Shown here in pieces: positions 1,440-9,139 of a stretch of 9,139 nt of DNA. Every line of letters begins with the position of its first letter. The stretch's first letter is position 1. Origin of the DNA: Saprospiraceae bacterium (GTDB taxonomy: Bacteria; Bacteroidota; Bacteroidia; Chitinophagales; Saprospiraceae); contig SLKL01000461.1 in NCBI GenBank assembly GCA_007134625.1, forward strand, positions 1 through 9,139, read 5' to 3'. The notes below the pieces were generated by a model. The model searched no databases. It was not told where the DNA came from and was given only the letters and a program-made list of their open reading frames with translations. The translations under genes and the position numbers were made by a program.

Positions 1440-2675
1440 TCATCTTACCTTATCCCCAAGTGAATTCAAAGCATAAATGATGATAAAAATAGCAAGACCT
1501 GGAAAAACAGCCATCCACCATGCAGGGAAATATCTTCTAGCTTCACTGAGCATGCTGCCCCAGCTTACCTGATCGATTCCGAGACCAAGACCGAGAAAGG
1601 AGAGGGTGGATTCGGCGAGTATGGCAGCACTGATACCGAATGCAGAGATGACGATTAGTGGTGCTTTAGCATTGGGCAAAATATCAGTAAAAATGATGCG
1701 GAAATCATTTTTTCTGAATAAGCGGGCAGCACTGACAAATTCTTTTTCTCTGAGACTTAAAAACTCAGCGCGGGTATATCGCGCGAAGGTAGGCCACATC
1801 AGCAGTGCCAGAATGAGTGCTATGGTCGTCATACCTGTTTGTCCGAAAACGGCGAGAAGCGCAAGCAATATAAACAAGTTGGGCAGGGAACGGAAAATTT
1901 CGATCAGACGAAGCAATATCAAATCGAGTGGAATGGGGAAAGAACGCGAAAGGAAGCCGGGAAGTTTGTTGACTAATGCACCCAATTGAGACTTTTTTAG
2001 TAAAAAGGGCAGAAAAACTGCCAACAGGAATGGCAACCAAACAATAAATCCTGAAACCGCCGCACCCATCATTTGCAAATAAAATAAATACATCCACATC
2101 AGGAAAAGAAAAGTCATCAGCAACAGTGCCAGCCCGCTTAGGAAAATACCCCTATCTCCGTAATACCCTGCGGCAGCCCCGAGTGGAACGCCTATGATAA
2201 ATGCAAAAAACACCGCTAACATACCCACCACAAAAGCCACTCTCGCACCGTGAACCATTCCCGCCATAATGTCCCGACCGAGTCGATCAGTTCCCAGCCA
2301 GTGTCTCTGTCTCCAGTCAGTGATATTCTGGTTTTCAAAAGGGCTCACAAAGCCGGTATTGTTGCGATCTATAGTCTGCGGGCTGTAAGGAATCGGAGTC
2401 CTGACTATGGATTCCATGCGATCGGCTTTCCCCCGGTATTTCAGACGCACAGAAGCATCTCCTCTGATTTTTGCAATGCTTTCAGCTATCGCAGGAAAAT
2501 GTCTTTCACCGTCAATTTTGCAAGTAAGCGGCAATTCATTTGCCAATTGATCTGCAAAAACAGCCGCAAACACCCATATCAGCAGCACCAGCCGGATCCA
2601 TAGCGGAATGCTTTTTAGCGAAAAGACAGAAATATCAGTCTTTCGGAAGTTTTTTGTTTTTATTGCCTCAATCAT
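1440..2675 (-). CDS. OppC/DppC-like ABC importer permease with extra membrane segment insertion
   Basis: This inner-membrane permease has 411 residues, against about 300 for typical OppC/DppC. It should pair with the OppB-like permease to form the channel of a peptide/nickel-type importer. TM1 lies at about 25-42. HWLGTDRLGRDIMAG (125-139) is the classic OppC entry motif. The EAA-type ATPase contact loop, containing EFVSAARLFRKND and then ILPNAKAPLIV, lies at about 312-343, followed by SFLGLGLG and a C-terminal TM helix. Two insertions stand out: a periplasmic loop at about 45-120 containing IPYSPQTIDRNN, and about 75 residues between YYGDRG (171-176) and DLILLRLIEIFRSLPNL. The second adds two hydrophobic stretches (about 179-202 and 208-226). 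The start ATG overlaps the end of the OppB-like gene by 8 bases (ATGATTGA), indicating translational coupling. The substrate is unknown. Confidence 0.9.
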   Translation of the reverse strand: MIEAIKTKNFRKTDISVFSLKSIPLWIRLVLLIWVFAAVFADQLANELPLTCKIDGERHFPAIAESIAKIRGDASVRLKYRGKADRMESIVRTPIPYSPQTIDRNNTGFVSPFENQNITDWRQRHWLGTDRLGRDIMAGMVHGARVAFVVGMLAVFFAFIIGVPLGAAAGYYGDRGIFLSGLALLLMTFLFLMWMYLFYLQMMGAAVSGFIVWLPFLLAVFLPFLLKKSQLGALVNKLPGFLSRSFPIPLDLILLRLIEIFRSLPNLFILLALLAVFGQTGMTTIALILALLMWPTFARYTRAEFLSLREKEFVSAARLFRKNDFRIIFTDILPNAKAPLIVISAFGISAAILAESTLSFLGLGLGIDQVSWGSMLSEARRYFPAWWMAVFPGLAIFIIIYALNSLGDKVR

Positions 2676-4074
2676 ATTTCACCCGCGGATCAGCTTTTTT
2701 ATAAAAAATATCAGCAAGCAACTGACCGAGCATGGTCAGAAATCCCCCAAGCAAAAGTATAGCCATGAGTGTATTCCAGTCCTGCGCAAAAATGGAATCC
2801 CACAACAGCCGACCCATACCGGGTATATTAAAAATCACCTCTATAACTACTGAGCCGGAAATGAGTGATGGTAAAACCGCAGCAGAAAGTGTTATCAGAG
2901 GAAATAAGGCGTTTGGCAACCAATGTTTAAAAATAGTCCTCAGGCTTGAATTGCCCTTCAGGGAGGACATGCTCAGGTAAGCCTTGTATTTTTCCCGTAA
3001 AGCGGATTCCTCCATCTGTCTTGCCACAAAAGCAGCACCGCTGAGTGCCATACAAAGCACCGGCAACAACAAATACCCCAATGTGGTAAATGACAACCAA
3101 TGACCTGTAGTAGTCTGAATCATAATTTGCGTAGAAGATGGAAAAATATTGGTCCAGCTGCCGTATTCATTGGTGGTAAAAAATATGATCGCCAGAGTCG
3201 CCATCCAGAATAAAGGCATGGCATACAAAGCATACAGAAAGTTTCTGATTAGCCTTTTGGTAAACTTTTTTTCTGTTACCGCTAAATACATACCGGCAGG
3301 AATCCCAATCAGAAAGGTGAGCAGAATACTCCAAACCGACAAGACCAAGGTGTATTTCAGAGCGGGAATAATCTTTTTCCCTACTTCCTGACCATCTCTC
3401 ATGGACCTGCCCCAGTCACCGGAAAAAACCGAACTGATCCACTGGTGATAGCGGTTTTGCGTACCATTCCAGTAAAAAACGGGCCTCAGTAAACCCCTTT
3501 CTTTTTCAACTTCTAAAAGTCCATTCACCGAGTTCAAAAGCTGATCGAATTCTAGTCTCAGATCGCAATCCTCTGAAATATGCATCTCACTTAATAATTC
3601 TCTTAAACGGCTAAGGTCTTTAGTATGACTCGTATTTTCTAACTGCCGCAATAGTACATTTAACTCAGTTGAGCCGGGACAATCTGCGCCCTGACTTTTA
3701 GCTGTAGCAAGACTGAATTCAGAGGAAATGCGATGAAAAGCTATTATTTTTTCGGCATGCCCTTTTTCCAGCATAAGTAATCGCAGCCTTTTTCTGTCTC
3801 TTTCAAGAGGAATTTCCCTTAACCCGGGGCTTACAGCAGCCGGCAGAACAGAAAAATAAAACACCGGAAGGTTCAAGCCCAACTGATTCCTCGTCTGTCG
3901 ATATTGCTCTAATTGGCGATGGTGCTGTTCAGCACCGGTAAAGTCCTCTACTTGTCCTGCAAGGCGTTCTACCGGATCACCGGGCATGATTTGCCCCAAT
4001 CCGAACACCAGCAAACTGATAATCAACAGTGCAGGAATGAAAAGTAGTATTCGCCTTAGTAGGTAGGACTTCAT
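2668..4074 (-). CDS. OppB/DppB-like ABC importer permease with large periplasmic insertion
   Basis: This permease has 468 residues; usual family members have about 305-340. TM1 (about 8-29) is followed by the family signature MPGDPVERLAG (30-40) and a 'LGLNLPVFYF' segment. About 115-130 extra residues (roughly 78-205) then separate this from the conserved FSGDWGRSMRDGQEV (217-231). The insertion is charged, rich in Leu, Glu, Arg and Lys, contains cysteines at 132 and 170, and may be helical; it should lie on the periplasmic side. The transport domain continues with TM segments at about 240-265, 277-300 and 331-350, the EAA-type loop with REKYKAYLSMSSLKG (360-374) and HWLPNALFPL, and the ending VIEVIFNIPGMGRLLWDSI. 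It starts 11 bases after the binding-protein stop and overlaps the OppC-like gene, so it is the middle gene of one operon. The substrate cannot be inferred. Confidence 0.91.
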   Translation of the reverse strand: MKSYLLRRILLFIPALLIISLLVFGLGQIMPGDPVERLAGQVEDFTGAEQHHRQLEQYRQTRNQLGLNLPVFYFSVLPAAVSPGLREIPLERDRKRLRLLMLEKGHAEKIIAFHRISSEFSLATAKSQGADCPGSTELNVLLRQLENTSHTKDLSRLRELLSEMHISEDCDLRLEFDQLLNSVNGLLEVEKERGLLRPVFYWNGTQNRYHQWISSVFSGDWGRSMRDGQEVGKKIIPALKYTLVLSVWSILLTFLIGIPAGMYLAVTEKKFTKRLIRNFLYALYAMPLFWMATLAIIFFTTNEYGSWTNIFPSSTQIMIQTTTGHWLSFTTLGYLLLPVLCMALSGAAFVARQMEESALREKYKAYLSMSSLKGNSSLRTIFKHWLPNALFPLITLSAAVLPSLISGSVVIEVIFNIPGMGRLLWDSIFAQDWNTLMAILLLGGFLTMLGQLLADIFYKKADPRVKYD

Positions 4075-4085
4075 AAGCTGCTGTT

Positions 4086-5831
4086 TTACCCGGCTTTCCG
4101 CGCCGTATGCAAAATATAGCCCGGACGCACAGCACTTATCAGTATATCAAATTGATTGTTGACGACCAGTCTTTCTTTAGGCGCCATCATCAAAATGACC
4201 GGTTGCTCTTCGTAAATGATTTCCTGAATTTGGTGATACATCTCCCTTAATGCATCATCGTCCTCCGTCCTGCGAATTTGCATAATAAGTTCATCCACTT
4301 CGGGATGAGAAAAGCCCGATACATTATTTCCACCGGGTCGTGCTGCATCGCTGTGCCAGTTTTGAAATAGATCAGTTTTGTAGGTGTTTTGTCTGAGCAC
4401 CAAAGGGGTAATGTGGAAGTTTCTGTTGGATAGGTCTTGCCTGATTAGTCTGAATTCCCGTTGATTGATATCCACTTTAATTCCGGTTTTCTCAGCAGCT
4501 TCCTGAAAGACCAAAGCAGTTTGCCTGCCGATTTCACCACCTGAAATATCAATAGTGATATGCAAATCCATTTTTTCGCCATCGATTTCTTTATCTCTTA
4601 TACCGTCCCCATCACTATCCGTCCATCCGGCAAGAGTAAGCAGACTGTCAGCTGCTCTCAAATTCATTTTTATTGGCTCTAAACCGGAGTGGTAGTATGG
4701 ATTTGAGGGATGCAAAATGGTACTCAATGGTTCAGCATAGCCCTCCATCAACTCTTTAATCAAAAATTCAGTATCCAGGAGCTTAGCTATTGCTCTTCGG
4801 CTATTTTTATCCGAAAAAAACGGGTGATCGTTATTCATCGCCAGATAATACAATTCCAGTAATGGCGGAGTATGGAAGTTAAATTGCGCTGAAGTACTCG
4901 CATCCTCTTTTAAATCTCTGAAATAGGTGGGTGAAACTTCCGACATAAGGTGAATACTACCCTCTTTAAGAGCAGAGAGTGCTGTAGCCTCATCCGGTAT
5001 AATGAAAAAATGTATGCTTTCAGGCCCTGGCTGCAGTACATCCTCCCCCCACCAATTTTCTTTTTTGGAAAGACTGATCGTCTGACCGGTTTCATACATT
5101 ATGAGTTGATAAGGTCCCGACCCGCTAATCTGCTCCACATTTAATCTCGCAGAACCAAAAGCATCAGCAAGCAGCTTAAGGGCTTCTTCCTGCTCCTCGG
5201 TAAAATCACCCTCCTCATAATTTTTTAAAGCTTCATAATCAAAGTCCCGCATGATGCCGTTCGGATCGTAGTGATATTCCGGATAGATGGAGAAAGTTCC
5301 ACTGATTTCCATAGAGAGGATAAAATCACTGTCCACATAAGCTGTCAGTTTACGATCATTATCCGGGTGCAACTCAATTTTGTGTAAAAAGCTAAGGAAG
5401 TTTTTCCAGCTCGCAGCGGGCACATATGGATTGAGTGCCAGCTTTTTGGTAAAAAGATAATCCTGCGCTGTTACGCTGCTACCATCCTCCCATGTCACAT
5501 CTTCCCGGATGACATAGGTATATGCAGTCAATTCTTTTCCATCCATCTCAATACCCGTTTCGATTTCCGGCAAACTTTCCGCAAGCATAGGTTCAATCTC
5601 CAGGCTGTAGGGGTTTTGGTAAAGCAAACCACTAAAAATCAACTCCTCAATCTGAGTGGCATATCCACTGCGGGAAAGCATGGGATTAAGTCGTTCAGGA
5701 TCAGCAGGTATGCGCACATGAATACGTTCAGGAAAAATATCAGTAGTATCTGTTTGGCACGACTGAAAAATAATGCCGCTGCTAATGAAAAGAAGTAAAG
5801 CGAAAAAATAGAATATTGGAGAACGGGACAT
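4086..5831 (-). CDS. Family 5 extracellular solute-binding lipoprotein (OppA/DppA-like)
   Basis: This 581-residue protein is the first gene of the importer operon. Residues 1-24 are a lipoprotein signal with a hydrophobic core and lipobox-like end FQSC, placing the lipidated Cys at 25; the mature protein begins CQTDTTD. SBP_bac_5 features include ADPERLNPMLSRSGYATQIEELIFSGLLY (43-71), the 'AESLPEI' strand, VTWEDGSSVTAQDYLFT (112-128), SGSGPYQL (236-243), NNDHPFFSDKNSRRAIAKLLD (333-353) and NVSGFSHPEVDELI (503-516). A short acidic DSDGDGIRD (405-413) resembles a Ca-binding loop and is common in this family. The protein should capture an oligopeptide-like or other ligand and pass it to the two permeases downstream. 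No ATPase genes (OppD/OppF type) are adjacent, so these must come from elsewhere. The start ATG is preceded by a TATATTTG box only 10 bases away and no Shine-Dalgarno sequence. Confidence 0.92.
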   Translation of the reverse strand: MSRSPIFYFFALLLFISSGIIFQSCQTDTTDIFPERIHVRIPADPERLNPMLSRSGYATQIEELIFSGLLYQNPYSLEIEPMLAESLPEIETGIEMDGKELTAYTYVIREDVTWEDGSSVTAQDYLFTKKLALNPYVPAASWKNFLSFLHKIELHPDNDRKLTAYVDSDFILSMEISGTFSIYPEYHYDPNGIMRDFDYEALKNYEEGDFTEEQEEALKLLADAFGSARLNVEQISGSGPYQLIMYETGQTISLSKKENWWGEDVLQPGPESIHFFIIPDEATALSALKEGSIHLMSEVSPTYFRDLKEDASTSAQFNFHTPPLLELYYLAMNNDHPFFSDKNSRRAIAKLLDTEFLIKELMEGYAEPLSTILHPSNPYYHSGLEPIKMNLRAADSLLTLAGWTDSDGDGIRDKEIDGEKMDLHITIDISGGEIGRQTALVFQEAAEKTGIKVDINQREFRLIRQDLSNRNFHITPLVLRQNTYKTDLFQNWHSDAARPGGNNVSGFSHPEVDELIMQIRRTEDDDALREMYHQIQEIIYEEQPVILMMAPKERLVVNNQFDILISAVRPGYILHTARKAG

Positions 5832-6356: not shown

Positions 6357-6965
6357 CTACTCCTCACTAAAAATGGTTTTTAAGGGGATTTTCAGATCAG
6401 GAAAGAGGTTGCCTTCTACTTCGGTGATGCCTTCTCTTTCGCTATATATCCCCAAAGATTCGTATTTATCGTTAATAAGGCTAAAAATTTCAATGCTTTT
6501 GTTAGCGGGGTCGGCTATCCAGTATTCTTTTACGCCGTTTTCTTCGTAGAGGTTGAACTTTTCATTATAATCTTTCTTGGCAGTGCTTTCTGACAAAACC
6601 TCAACTATCAAATCGGGTGCACCCAAGCATCCTGCATCATCGAGTTTGCTTTTGTCGCAAATCACACAAATATCGGGTTGTACAACGGTGTCAATTTGGT
6701 CATCTTTAGCTTTGTTTCTTTTGAGGCGAACGTCAAAAGGGGATTGATAGACCTCGCATTGGCTATTTTCGAAATAATTCCACATCTTGGCATGCAAATT
6801 ACCTTCAATTTTTTGATGGGTTCGTTTAGGTGCAGGACTCATTTTATACAACCATCCTTTGATGAGTTCTAAGCGTTCGTTAAACCTCCAATTCAGATAA
6901 TCTGCATAGGTATATTGCTTACTGAAATCTAACTCATTGATGTCGGTGATATATTTGCGTTTCAT
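6357..6965 (-). CDS. Uma2-family putative endonuclease (DUF820, PD-(D/E)XK-like)
   Basis: The 202-residue length is normal for the family. Features in order: the N-terminal helix YTYADYLNW, then ERLELIKGWLYKMSPAP (30-46), whose Glu and Gly are typical of the first family block; HQKIEGNLHAKMWNYF (50-65); QPDICVICD (96-104); APDLIVEVLSEST (116-128); and NLYEENGVKEYWIADP (138-153). The putative metal site is made of Asp98 and the Asp118/Glu122 pair, with a lysine near 136. Uma2 proteins share the restriction-endonuclease fold, but their physiological role is unproven. The gene stands alone, has its own TATCTTTG box 15 bases upstream, and lies inside an island of repeats bounded by imperfect inverted repeats. 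This suggests it arrived by transfer, an inference only. Confidence 0.9.
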   Translation of the reverse strand: MKRKYITDINELDFSKQYTYADYLNWRFNERLELIKGWLYKMSPAPKRTHQKIEGNLHAKMWNYFENSQCEVYQSPFDVRLKRNKAKDDQIDTVVQPDICVICDKSKLDDAGCLGAPDLIVEVLSESTAKKDYNEKFNLYEENGVKEYWIADPANKSIEIFSLINDKYESLGIYSEREGITEVEGNLFPDLKIPLKTIFSEE

Positions 6966-7352: not shown

Positions 7353-7625
7353 GTGAAATTCCCGTTTTACAAACAACTGGATTCTATGGACTGCGGGCCC
7401 ACCGCTCTCAGGATGATTGCCAAGTATCATGGCAAGTCCTACTCCTTGCCATTCCTTAGAGAAAAATGCTATATCGATCGGGCAGGTGTAAGCCTAAAGG
7501 GGATTAGCGAAGCAGCTGAGGCAATTGGCTTCCGCTCATTGGCAGTTAAAGTACCGCTTTCTACCCCCCCCCCCATGACAAAATGGCAGTCCCGACCCTG
7601 TCCGATGCTCCACTACCATGTATAG
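7353..7625 (+). CDS. N-terminal fragment of a C39 peptidase-containing ABC exporter, cut off by a frameshift at a C11 tract
   Basis: This frame encodes the first part of the cysteine-protease domain that trims double-glycine leaders before export. It starts at GTG 7353; an in-frame TAA at 7332 leaves no better upstream start, and the first ATG (codon 12) would remove conserved residues. YKQLDSMDCGPTALRMIAKYHGKSY holds the oxyanion-hole Gln8 and catalytic Cys14 with the usual 6-residue spacing; GVSLKGISEAAEAIGFRSLAVKV (about 46-68) is also typical. The homology stops at Thr71, where C11 (7564-7574) begins. After it the frame yields PPP and a non-homologous tail that ends at 7625. The homologous continuation lies in another frame and would be joined if the run held 9 or 12 Cs. 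The gene may be phase-variable, a true pseudogene, or whole apart from a sequencing error. Confidence 0.85.
   Translation: MKFPFYKQLDSMDCGPTALRMIAKYHGKSYSLPFLREKCYIDRAGVSLKGISEAAEAIGFRSLAVKVPLSTPPPMTKWQSRPCPMLHYHV
7564..7574 (+). repeat. Homopolymer C11 tract at the frameshift point (candidate contingency locus)
   Basis: There are eleven consecutive C residues in an otherwise AT-rich gene; the longest other C runs I noted in the window are 6 (748-753 and 5045-5050). The two homologous halves of the exporter join in frame only when the tract length is a multiple of 3. The tract encodes a Pro run in a loop between the Cys and His parts of the C39 domain, a place where length change should be tolerated. 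Confidence 0.9.
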
Positions 7626-9139
7626 TCCATTGGAATCAGAATCACTTTGTGGTGGTTTACAAAATATCCAGAAAGAATGTGTGGATAGCAGACCCAGGAG
7701 CCGGAAAAATCAAGCTAACTCATGCAGAATTCAATAAATCGTATAAGAGTGATGGCGACAACGGAGTAGCACTCTTGTTAGAGACCAGCCCGGATTTTTA
7801 CAGGGACGATCTGGATGATTTTTCCAAAAGGGGGTTTTGGTTTATTTTTGATTATCTGCGACCGCATACAAGGCTGCTATGGCAGGTGGTAATAGGGTTG
7901 ATGCTGGGAATGGTATTTCAGTTGATATTTCCCTTCCTTACTCAAAGTCTGGTTGATATAGGGATTGACACCCAAAATCTTGGGTTTATCTACATAGTAT
8001 TGGCGGGACAATTGATGCTTTTTGTCGGGCAAATATCAGTCCGCTTTATTCAAAGTTGGATAATACTCCATATATCCGTGCGCATCAATGTACACCTCAT
8101 TGCCGATTTTCTCATAAAACTGATGAAACTTCCACTCGGGTTCTTTGATTCCAAAAATATTGGAGATTTGCTACAGCGTATTGGTGACCATAAGAGAGTT
8201 GAGAGTTTTTTGACCCAATCCATATTGAGTTTTATTCTCTCGATAGCCACTCTTATTGTCTTTGGCTTTGTTTTGGCTATATACTCCACTACCATTGTTG
8301 CCATTTTTTTGATTGCAGCTTTTCTGTACATAGGCTGGATTTATATTTTTCTAAAAAAGCGTAAAGAAGTCGATTACAAAGCCTTTCAGGAACTGTCAGA
8401 TACACAGGACTCGCTTATTGAAATAATTCAAGGGATGCCGGAGATAAAATTACAAGGCAGTCAATTGAAAAGGCGGTGGAAATGGGCGATTATCCAAGCC
8501 AAATTGTTCCGGACTCAGATGCGCGGGCTCGCCATAAGCCAATATCAGGATGCCGGTGCTTTGTCTATAACACAATTAAAAGACATCATCATTACTTTTA
8601 TCGCTGCTAAAGCGGTATTGGATGGGCACATGACCTTGGGTATGATGTTAGCCATACAATATATCATCGGTCAGTTGAATGCTCCCCTCAATCAGTTGGT
8701 GGGTTTTATTCGTGCAGCTCAGGATGCATCCATAAGTCTGGAAAGGCTGGGAGAAATCCATGGAAATCCTGAGGAAGAGGACAGTAAAGTTACCAAAATA
8801 GCGGATGTGCCTGATGGTGACATCATTATTGATGATGTTTCTTTTAGATACACACCCGTAGGTGATGAGGTATTGAAAAAAGTAAATATTCGGATACCGA
8901 GAGGAAAAACCACCGCCATCGTAGGCACAAGTGGAAGTGGCAAGACCACACTTATAAAATTGTTACTCGGCTTTTATCCGCCTGTTAGTGGAAAAATAAG
9001 CATTGGTCAGGTGGGGCTTGATGCGCTTTATCAAAAATCCTGGAGAAAACAATGTGGTGTAGTTATGCAGGACGGATACATTTTTTCTGATACCATCGCC
9101 AACAATATAGCCGAAAGCGATGATGAGACCAATTACCAA
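7583..9139 (+). CDS. C39 peptidase-containing ABC exporter, main part (rest of peptidase, membrane and ATPase domains), partial at window end
   Basis: The frame is open from the C tract to the window end, 521 codons counted from 7577; the first internal ATG is 7583. It continues the C39 domain with LPCIVHWNQNHFVVVYK and VWIADPGAG, giving the catalytic His (NHF) and Asp (ADP) 16 residues apart, as in the family. Next comes an exporter membrane domain with six hydrophobic segments (about 7874-7936, 7979-8041, 8219-8353 as a pair, 8582-8690 as a pair), then the ATPase: a DVSFRYTP strand, Walker A GTSGSGKT (8924-8947) and the Q-loop VMQDGYIFSDTIANNI (from 9062). The signature motif and Walker B lie beyond the edge. 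With the N-terminal part, the full protein would be about 730 residues, normal for the family. Translated alone from 7583 it would lack catalytic Cys14 and could not cleave leaders. Confidence 0.9.
   Translation, partial: MAVPTLSDAPLPCIVHWNQNHFVVVYKISRKNVWIADPGAGKIKLTHAEFNKSYKSDGDNGVALLLETSPDFYRDDLDDFSKRGFWFIFDYLRPHTRLLWQVVIGLMLGMVFQLIFPFLTQSLVDIGIDTQNLGFIYIVLAGQLMLFVGQISVRFIQSWIILHISVRINVHLIADFLIKLMKLPLGFFDSKNIGDLLQRIGDHKRVESFLTQSILSFILSIATLIVFGFVLAIYSTTIVAIFLIAAFLYIGWIYIFLKKRKEVDYKAFQELSDTQDSLIEIIQGMPEIKLQGSQLKRRWKWAIIQAKLFRTQMRGLAISQYQDAGALSITQLKDIIITFIAAKAVLDGHMTLGMMLAIQYIIGQLNAPLNQLVGFIRAAQDASISLERLGEIHGNPEEEDSKVTKIADVPDGDIIIDDVSFRYTPVGDEVLKKVNIRIPRGKTTAIVGTSGSGKTTLIKLLLGFYPPVSGKISIGQVGLDALYQKSWRKQCGVVMQDGYIFSDTIANNIAESDDETNYQ

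Follow-up and report, generated by a model that had tools for sequence, protein, structure and literature searches.

The stretch of DNA analysed here, referred to as the window, comprises 9,139 nucleotides and corresponds to one contig (C296) of a draft genome (G000) of 2.55 Mb, assembled in 479 contigs and estimated as 74.6% complete. Towards the end of the window lies the gene of an ABC exporter containing a C39 peptidase, which a homopolymer of eleven cytosines (C11) splits between the cysteine and histidine codons of the peptidase domain. The features of this gene are the following.

7353..7625, plus strand: upstream ORF with a GTG start at 7353, encoding the first half of the C39 domain with its cysteine (PF03412)
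7392..7394, plus strand: codon of the C39 cysteine, in the DCGPT motif (aligned with C39 domains of the PDB)
7564..7574, plus strand: C11 homopolymer and frame break (read from the window sequence)
7583..9139, plus strand: downstream ORF from an ATG (MAVP), encoding the second half of the C39 domain, the transmembrane region and the start of the ATPase (Pfam)
7643..7645, plus strand: codon of the C39 histidine, in the NHF motif (PDB alignment), on the opposite side of C11 from the cysteine
7691..7693, plus strand: codon of the C39 aspartate, in the ADP motif (PDB alignment), on the same side of C11 as the histidine
8924..8950, plus strand: GTSGSGKTT, the Walker A motif of the ATPase domain (Pfam and sequence)

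The cysteine, histidine and aspartate of the C39 domain, presumably the catalytic residues of the family, are encoded in two different reading frames. The upstream frame extends over 70 codons to position 7562, continues through C11 and reaches a stop codon at 7623–7625, this piece matching positions 2–70 of the Pfam profile PF03412 (Peptidase_C39) with an E value of 7.4e-17. The downstream frame, shifted relative to the upstream one and open up to the contig end at 9139, takes up the same profile at positions 70–122 and continues with PF00664 and PF00005. An initial annotation of the window had placed the cytosine tract inside the protease domain of an otherwise intact exporter, and both statements were borne out, as the frames differ across the run, the Pfam domain is cut in two and the 589 exporter codons within the window contain no additional stop or loss of frame. 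With no other lesion found, it is the length of C11 that sets whether both halves of the exporter share one frame. The same annotation had described the catalytic and ATPase motifs as preserved, which holds for the cysteine, histidine, aspartate and Walker A; the window ends inside the ATPase domain, and the later ATPase motifs lie beyond it.

The DCGPT, NHF and ADP motifs could be aligned with those of PDB entries 6mpz, 3k8u and 4ry2 by way of a full-length relative (P0010). Judged from the two pieces, from P0010 and from the copy of a sister species (G003), the exporter has the layout of a PCAT, a C39 domain with cysteine, histidine and aspartate followed by ABC transmembrane and ATPase domains, with those three residues aligned as in the PCAT1, ComA and AMS-type transporters (PDB 4ry2, 8hf4, 3k8u, 6mpz). 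In the solved PCAT structures, however, the C39 domain forms one chain, whereas here the gene is broken inside it. Scoring against the corresponding family models covered the two separate pieces, of which the downstream one gives 234.6 and 267.6 bits against cut-offs of 523.85 and 853.3 for TIGR01193 and TIGR03796, respectively.

At the base composition of the window, 0.12 C or G runs of at least 11 would be expected in 2.55 Mb. C11 is the longest C/G run of this genome, in which runs of at least 8 number 12 against 13.5 expected, with no excess of shorter runs. Throughout the family, C10 runs were found in 232 of 398 genomes, with a very uneven spread. Some family genomes contain C10 windows by the hundreds, as is the case of G151 (288+359), G416 (229+205) and G243 (114+117), most members lying far lower. 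Since shorter runs are not in excess and C10 is common in the family, what rises above chance is the place and the conservation of C11 rather than its existence. C11 is unusual in a genome otherwise not enriched in runs, and its chance occurrence was rejected on position and conservation.

The run and the split gene in relatives

A sister species of the same genus (G003) encodes this exporter as well, at 93% identity across 519 residues, with C11 at the same spot, surrounded by different flanks and with the wrong-frame offset opposite to that of the window. Its contig starts 48 bases before C11 and includes the complete 3' part of the gene, the comparison covering the downstream half. Over this part 481 of 518 residues are identical, with a dN of 0.05 and a dS that is saturated and not computable, while the second half of the C39 domain retains 66 of 75 residues with a dN of 0.08. 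Fourfold sites differ at 113 of 174 positions, and since G003 still has C11 in spite of these changes, the C run has survived heavy silent change. The persistence of such a run in a gene apparently under purifying selection would be hard to explain by neutral decay. Among the other six genomes of the genus, drafts 67 to 98% complete, no ortholog at the level of G003 was found, the best matches having E values of 1e-26 to 1e-30 and none reaching 1e-180.

At the homologous spot of other relatives, the exporter is in frame at 115 of 117 distinct places, the window included, and the two exceptions are the window itself and G219; G003 is left out of this count because its upstream part is cut off. 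The window is alone among the 117 places in having a C/G run of at least 7 at the homologous segment. The segment ranges from 58 to 88 bases in 28 relatives, which indicates that indels are tolerated there, and in a low-confidence model of P0007 (mean pLDDT 67, pTM 0.37) the matching segment is predicted as a coil between two strands. The initial annotation had named in-frame relatives lacking the tract, together with a fixed C11 and further inactivating changes in this strain, as a finding that would speak against the switch. The former is what the 115 places show; the window, however, displays no further decay and its nearest relative shares the run. As for G219 (L188, G219:C407), its exporter also loses the frame within the C39 domain, and, the C run being absent, it was rejected as a case of this switch in another genus. 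Its broken frame without a run means that other causes of frame breaks in the C39 domain are possible.

Split copies extend beyond these two species. Protein searches were carried out, two of which cover the best 120 of 8,000 scored candidates each, with in-frame members possible lower down. The matches listed for the 519-residue downstream half include P0001–P0003, of 655 residues and 99% identical, which start at the ATG after the run, as well as the G003 copy P0004 and the similarly cut P0006, P0012 and P0030 at 76%, 75% and 72% identity. Those listed for the 90-residue upstream half include short C39 pieces (P0121, P0127, P0128, P0131, P0133, P0135, P0137 and P0142) whose homology closes with TPP or TPPP, followed by a stop or by loss of the frame. 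Several of these pieces could be paired with a downstream half: the tail of P0121 can be obtained by reading 35 residues of P0006 in a shifted frame (60 shuffles gave at most 6), and P0131 and P0012 are both on contigs of 14,533, with 6 dual-coding residues against 5 in shuffles. The halves of P0142/P0030, P0133/P0241 and P0137/P0242 were matched by contigs of 2,624, 14,389 and 3,882, respectively, in both members of the pair.

Altogether, at least seven lineages have the downstream half split at this spot, namely the species of the window (counted once, with P0001–P0003), G003, P0006, P0012, P0030, P0241 and P0242; P0005 was left out, as the start of its 2,589-base contig may just coincide with this spot. 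None of the seven is in frame among the matches listed, which would have a chance of 0.06 were one third of them on; nor do these matches include an in-frame allele with the run retained. The class of wrong frame could be read in six lineages, in the window and G003 from DNA and in four from protein tails, and falls four one way (window, P0121/P0006, P0131/P0012 and P0137/P0242) and two the other (G003 and P0135). P0135, with 7 dual-coding residues against 5 in shuffles and no downstream half among the matches listed, was counted in the frame classes only and not among the seven split lineages, while P0128 and the unreadable tails of P0133, P0142 and P0127 stand outside the frame-class count. 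The DNA of the run was read in G000 and G003, and elsewhere the run is deduced from endings in PP or PPP followed by a broken frame. The position of the run is kept while the frame state varies, as seen both in the other wrong frame of G003 and in the two wrong frames present among the six lineages.

A tree built from the downstream parts of 130 listed proteins (FastTree, midpoint root) places all split members together in a single group of 11 leaves. The node uniting them has a weak support of 0.499, and the branch containing P0006, P0007, P0030 and P0242 has 0.744. The sole full-length member of this group is P0007, 88% identical to P0006, which has at the spot a short APP without the long proline stretch. 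Another protein, P0122 (63 aa, 100% identical over its length), ends in STPPP and fits either a shorter run or a contig end; it was not taken to demonstrate a shorter allele, because truncation at a contig end would produce an identical protein. P0123, P0124 and P0198 consist of the N-terminal C39 part followed by a match to the C-terminal ~30 residues encoded by the gene that follows the G003 exporter (28–33 residues, 64–89% identical, L050:3302–3400). To judge from these matches they are deletion relics, and in P0123 and P0124 the deletion begins near the run.

C and G runs across the genus

The eight genomes of the genus contain 62 C/G runs of at least 9. We examined 37 of them, comprising all those of at least 10 except the exporter run of G003 (27 runs) and 10 of the 34 of exactly 9. 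Thirteen of the 37 follow an ATG at a distance of 13–67 nt and immediately precede a frame of 900 nt or more with a hydrophobic, signal-peptide-like start, or 12 of 37 when L218, which has Met codons behind the run and may start there, is not counted. Controls were drawn from the same 37 loci at positions at least 400 nt away from the run, and such a frame with an ATG was present at 383 of 19,994 positions per strand (1.9%), hydrophobicity not being required in the controls; for 13 of 74 strand positions, the binomial probability is 1.6e-9. Regarding their phases, two of the 13 runs are in frame, whereas six and five are in the two wrong frames. For one gene, the G002 copy (L197) is in frame and the G004 copy (L205) is not, the two being 80% identical.

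Ten of the 13 long frames were scanned, revealing subtilases (L201 and L209), NosD/beta-helix proteins (L196, L205 and L221) and a sub-threshold metallopeptidase match (L202); in the remaining scanned frames no family scored above its cut-off. At eight loci (L193, L198, L199, L207, L208, L212, L224 and L227) the run is placed inside a frame open on both sides, with at least 400 nt before it, so that many runs of the genus break nothing. Nevertheless, given the 13 runs in switch position, the exporter run is no isolated oddity and looks like one of a set, its location inside a domain being unlike the leader position of the other genus runs. When the eight exporter lineages (P0007 counted as on) and the 13 genus runs are taken together, the on state is found in 3 of 21, with a chance of 0.046.

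At L218 (G000:C140, minus strand), a G9 run with an ATG leader precedes a signal-like frame and is out of frame with it. This leader is nearly identical to that of L215 (G006:C183) while the genes behind differ, as if leader and run had recombined onto another gene.

Probable phase variation and its alternatives

The persistence of the run, the variation of its phase and the intact readable halves jointly favour phase variation, and it is likely that C11 works as a phase-variation switch of the full-length exporter, operated by slipped-strand changes of run length. Slipped-strand copying would lengthen or shorten the C run, whose length would thus vary within populations. One phase of three would give the whole exporter, whereas in the other two translation would end soon after the run, leaving half a protease without histidine and aspartate and probably abolishing both leader cleavage and export. 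The candidate on/off switch put forward in the initial annotation is supported by the C11 of G003 in the other wrong frame, by the further split lineages, by the conserved halves and by the runs of the genus. The exporter is probably phase-variable and part of a genus-wide set of homopolymer switches. A more far-reaching version would be that the run is old and selectively kept, that a clade of Saprospirales exporters is off by default in DNA with only rare slipped cells or transcripts secreting, and that the run is one member of a homopolymer phasome for secreted proteins spanning the genus, a proposal we regard as tentative and as possible rather than probable. The absence of in-frame copies among the seven split lineages and the low share of on states (3 of 21) speak against the switch unless natural conditions favour the off state, as for gonococcal napC, described in excerpts of PMC11798529 as mainly off (86%); otherwise recoding makes the full protein.

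Recoding would mean that the DNA is off-frame and that slippage of RNA polymerase or ribosomal frameshifting yields some full-length exporter in every cell; according to excerpts of PMC3711429, frame transitions in ABC transporters were classed as translational coupling. It remains a rival because no split lineage is in frame among the matches listed, yet the halves are conserved, and both wrong frames could be corrected by slippage on a run of Cs. Both wrong frames are nevertheless represented, by four and two lineages, instead of one conserved direction, the genus runs elsewhere occur in all three phases and, with reference to a 1990 paper, excerpts of PMC5084427 allege that transcriptional slippage is caused by A/T more than by G/C repeats, all of which makes recoding an unlikely source of the full-length exporter. 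A fixed frameshift in a dying exporter would agree with the off-frame copies of G003 and of the window's species (the window, and P0001–P0003 by their called starts) and with the operon deletion relics P0123, P0124 and P0198. Such a pseudogene is, however, very improbable in view of the dN of 0.05 and the saturated dS of the downstream half, which takes in part of the C39 domain, the lack of any other stop or frameshift in 589 codons and the same split in seven lineages.

Still less credit can be given to an arrangement of two proteins, an N-terminal C39 piece and an exporter started separately from the ATG at 7583. G000 and G003 share the position of that ATG, and the database entries P0001–P0004, P0006 and P0030 are called from the ATG after the run, but the cut falls inside a single domain, between cysteine and histidine, the gene is one frame at 115 of 117 places, P0241 and P0242 are called from further in and P0012 starts with V. 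The explanation to which we attach the lowest probability is an error of sequencing or assembly in the length of the homopolymer, the main alternative raised by the initial annotation and disfavoured by our data. G000 and G003 are indeed draft metagenome assemblies, and some contig ends of the genus fall within or close to such runs (G003:C85, G004:C29 and G004:C37). The C run is nonetheless also present in G003, on a contig of stated coverage 32, the split copies originate from several sources (ncbi, ena, jgi and lgn), and an error of this kind offers no explanation for a run here in this clade and at no other of the 117 places.

Known systems, consequences and cargo

Bacteroidota are known mainly for switching by DNA inversion, and homopolymer phase variation has been studied mainly in pathogens. 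We found no paper in the open-licence literature that treats Saprospiraceae together with phase variation, and among the open-licence literature matches listed no title concerned a run inside a C39 exporter. The exporter switch would work like the contingency loci of Campylobacter and Neisseria, its new aspects being the phylum and the target, the protease domain of the exporter. Excerpts of the PhasomeIt study (PMC6321876) describe phase-variable poly-G/C genes of Campylobacter as having C/G runs inside ORFs, with lengths that peak at 9–10 and several per genome. The run analysed here is likewise a C run inside an ORF, whereas the host is an uncultured member of Saprospirales, in the Bacteroidota. 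Closer in function is the nap island of Neisseria, to which the excerpted text of PMC11798529 ascribes GG-motif peptides, the C39 peptidase NapP and likely homopolymer phase variation. The runs given there are in napR, a regulator, and napC, a peptide, whereas here the run is in the exporter itself and would gate all cargo. In meningococci, deep sequencing revealed genes with length-variable coding runs, G/C runs being frequent among the strong candidates (PMC5084427, in excerpt); that variation was observed between strains and in reads, and the one reported here between species only. Additional background was provided by portions of PMC2831843, PMC12699852 and PMC1088944.

If this reading is true, a switch in the exporter would gate all cargo at once and divide a clonal population into secretors and non-secretors, and a homopolymer phasome in uncultured Saprospirales would extend the mechanism to environmental Bacteroidota. 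Gene callers cut such genes in two, and the database copies appear as 655-aa transporters and stray C39 fragments.

The window contig ends inside the exporter, and the evidence on cargo comes from a single relative, in which an exporter, an HlyD-family gene (PF13437, E 2.6e-8), a small gene whose HTH match stays below threshold and an ORF of 71 aa that carries a GG motif but matches no Pfam family follow one another in a row (L053:5770–9893). This row is the likely arrangement of the cargo. Behind the exporter of G003 there is a 440-aa gene, by eye an HlyD-type partner. The gene order in L053 and G003 suggests that the switch would likely act on the secretion of GG-leader peptides, and the cargo would be a peptide of this kind, with a candidate in the operon of L053. 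In the window, the exporter is adjoined by a Uma2-family gene (6357–6965, minus strand; Pfam), and a peptide-type ABC importer with a solute-binding protein of family 5 and two permeases occupies positions 1440–5831 of the same minus strand (Pfam).
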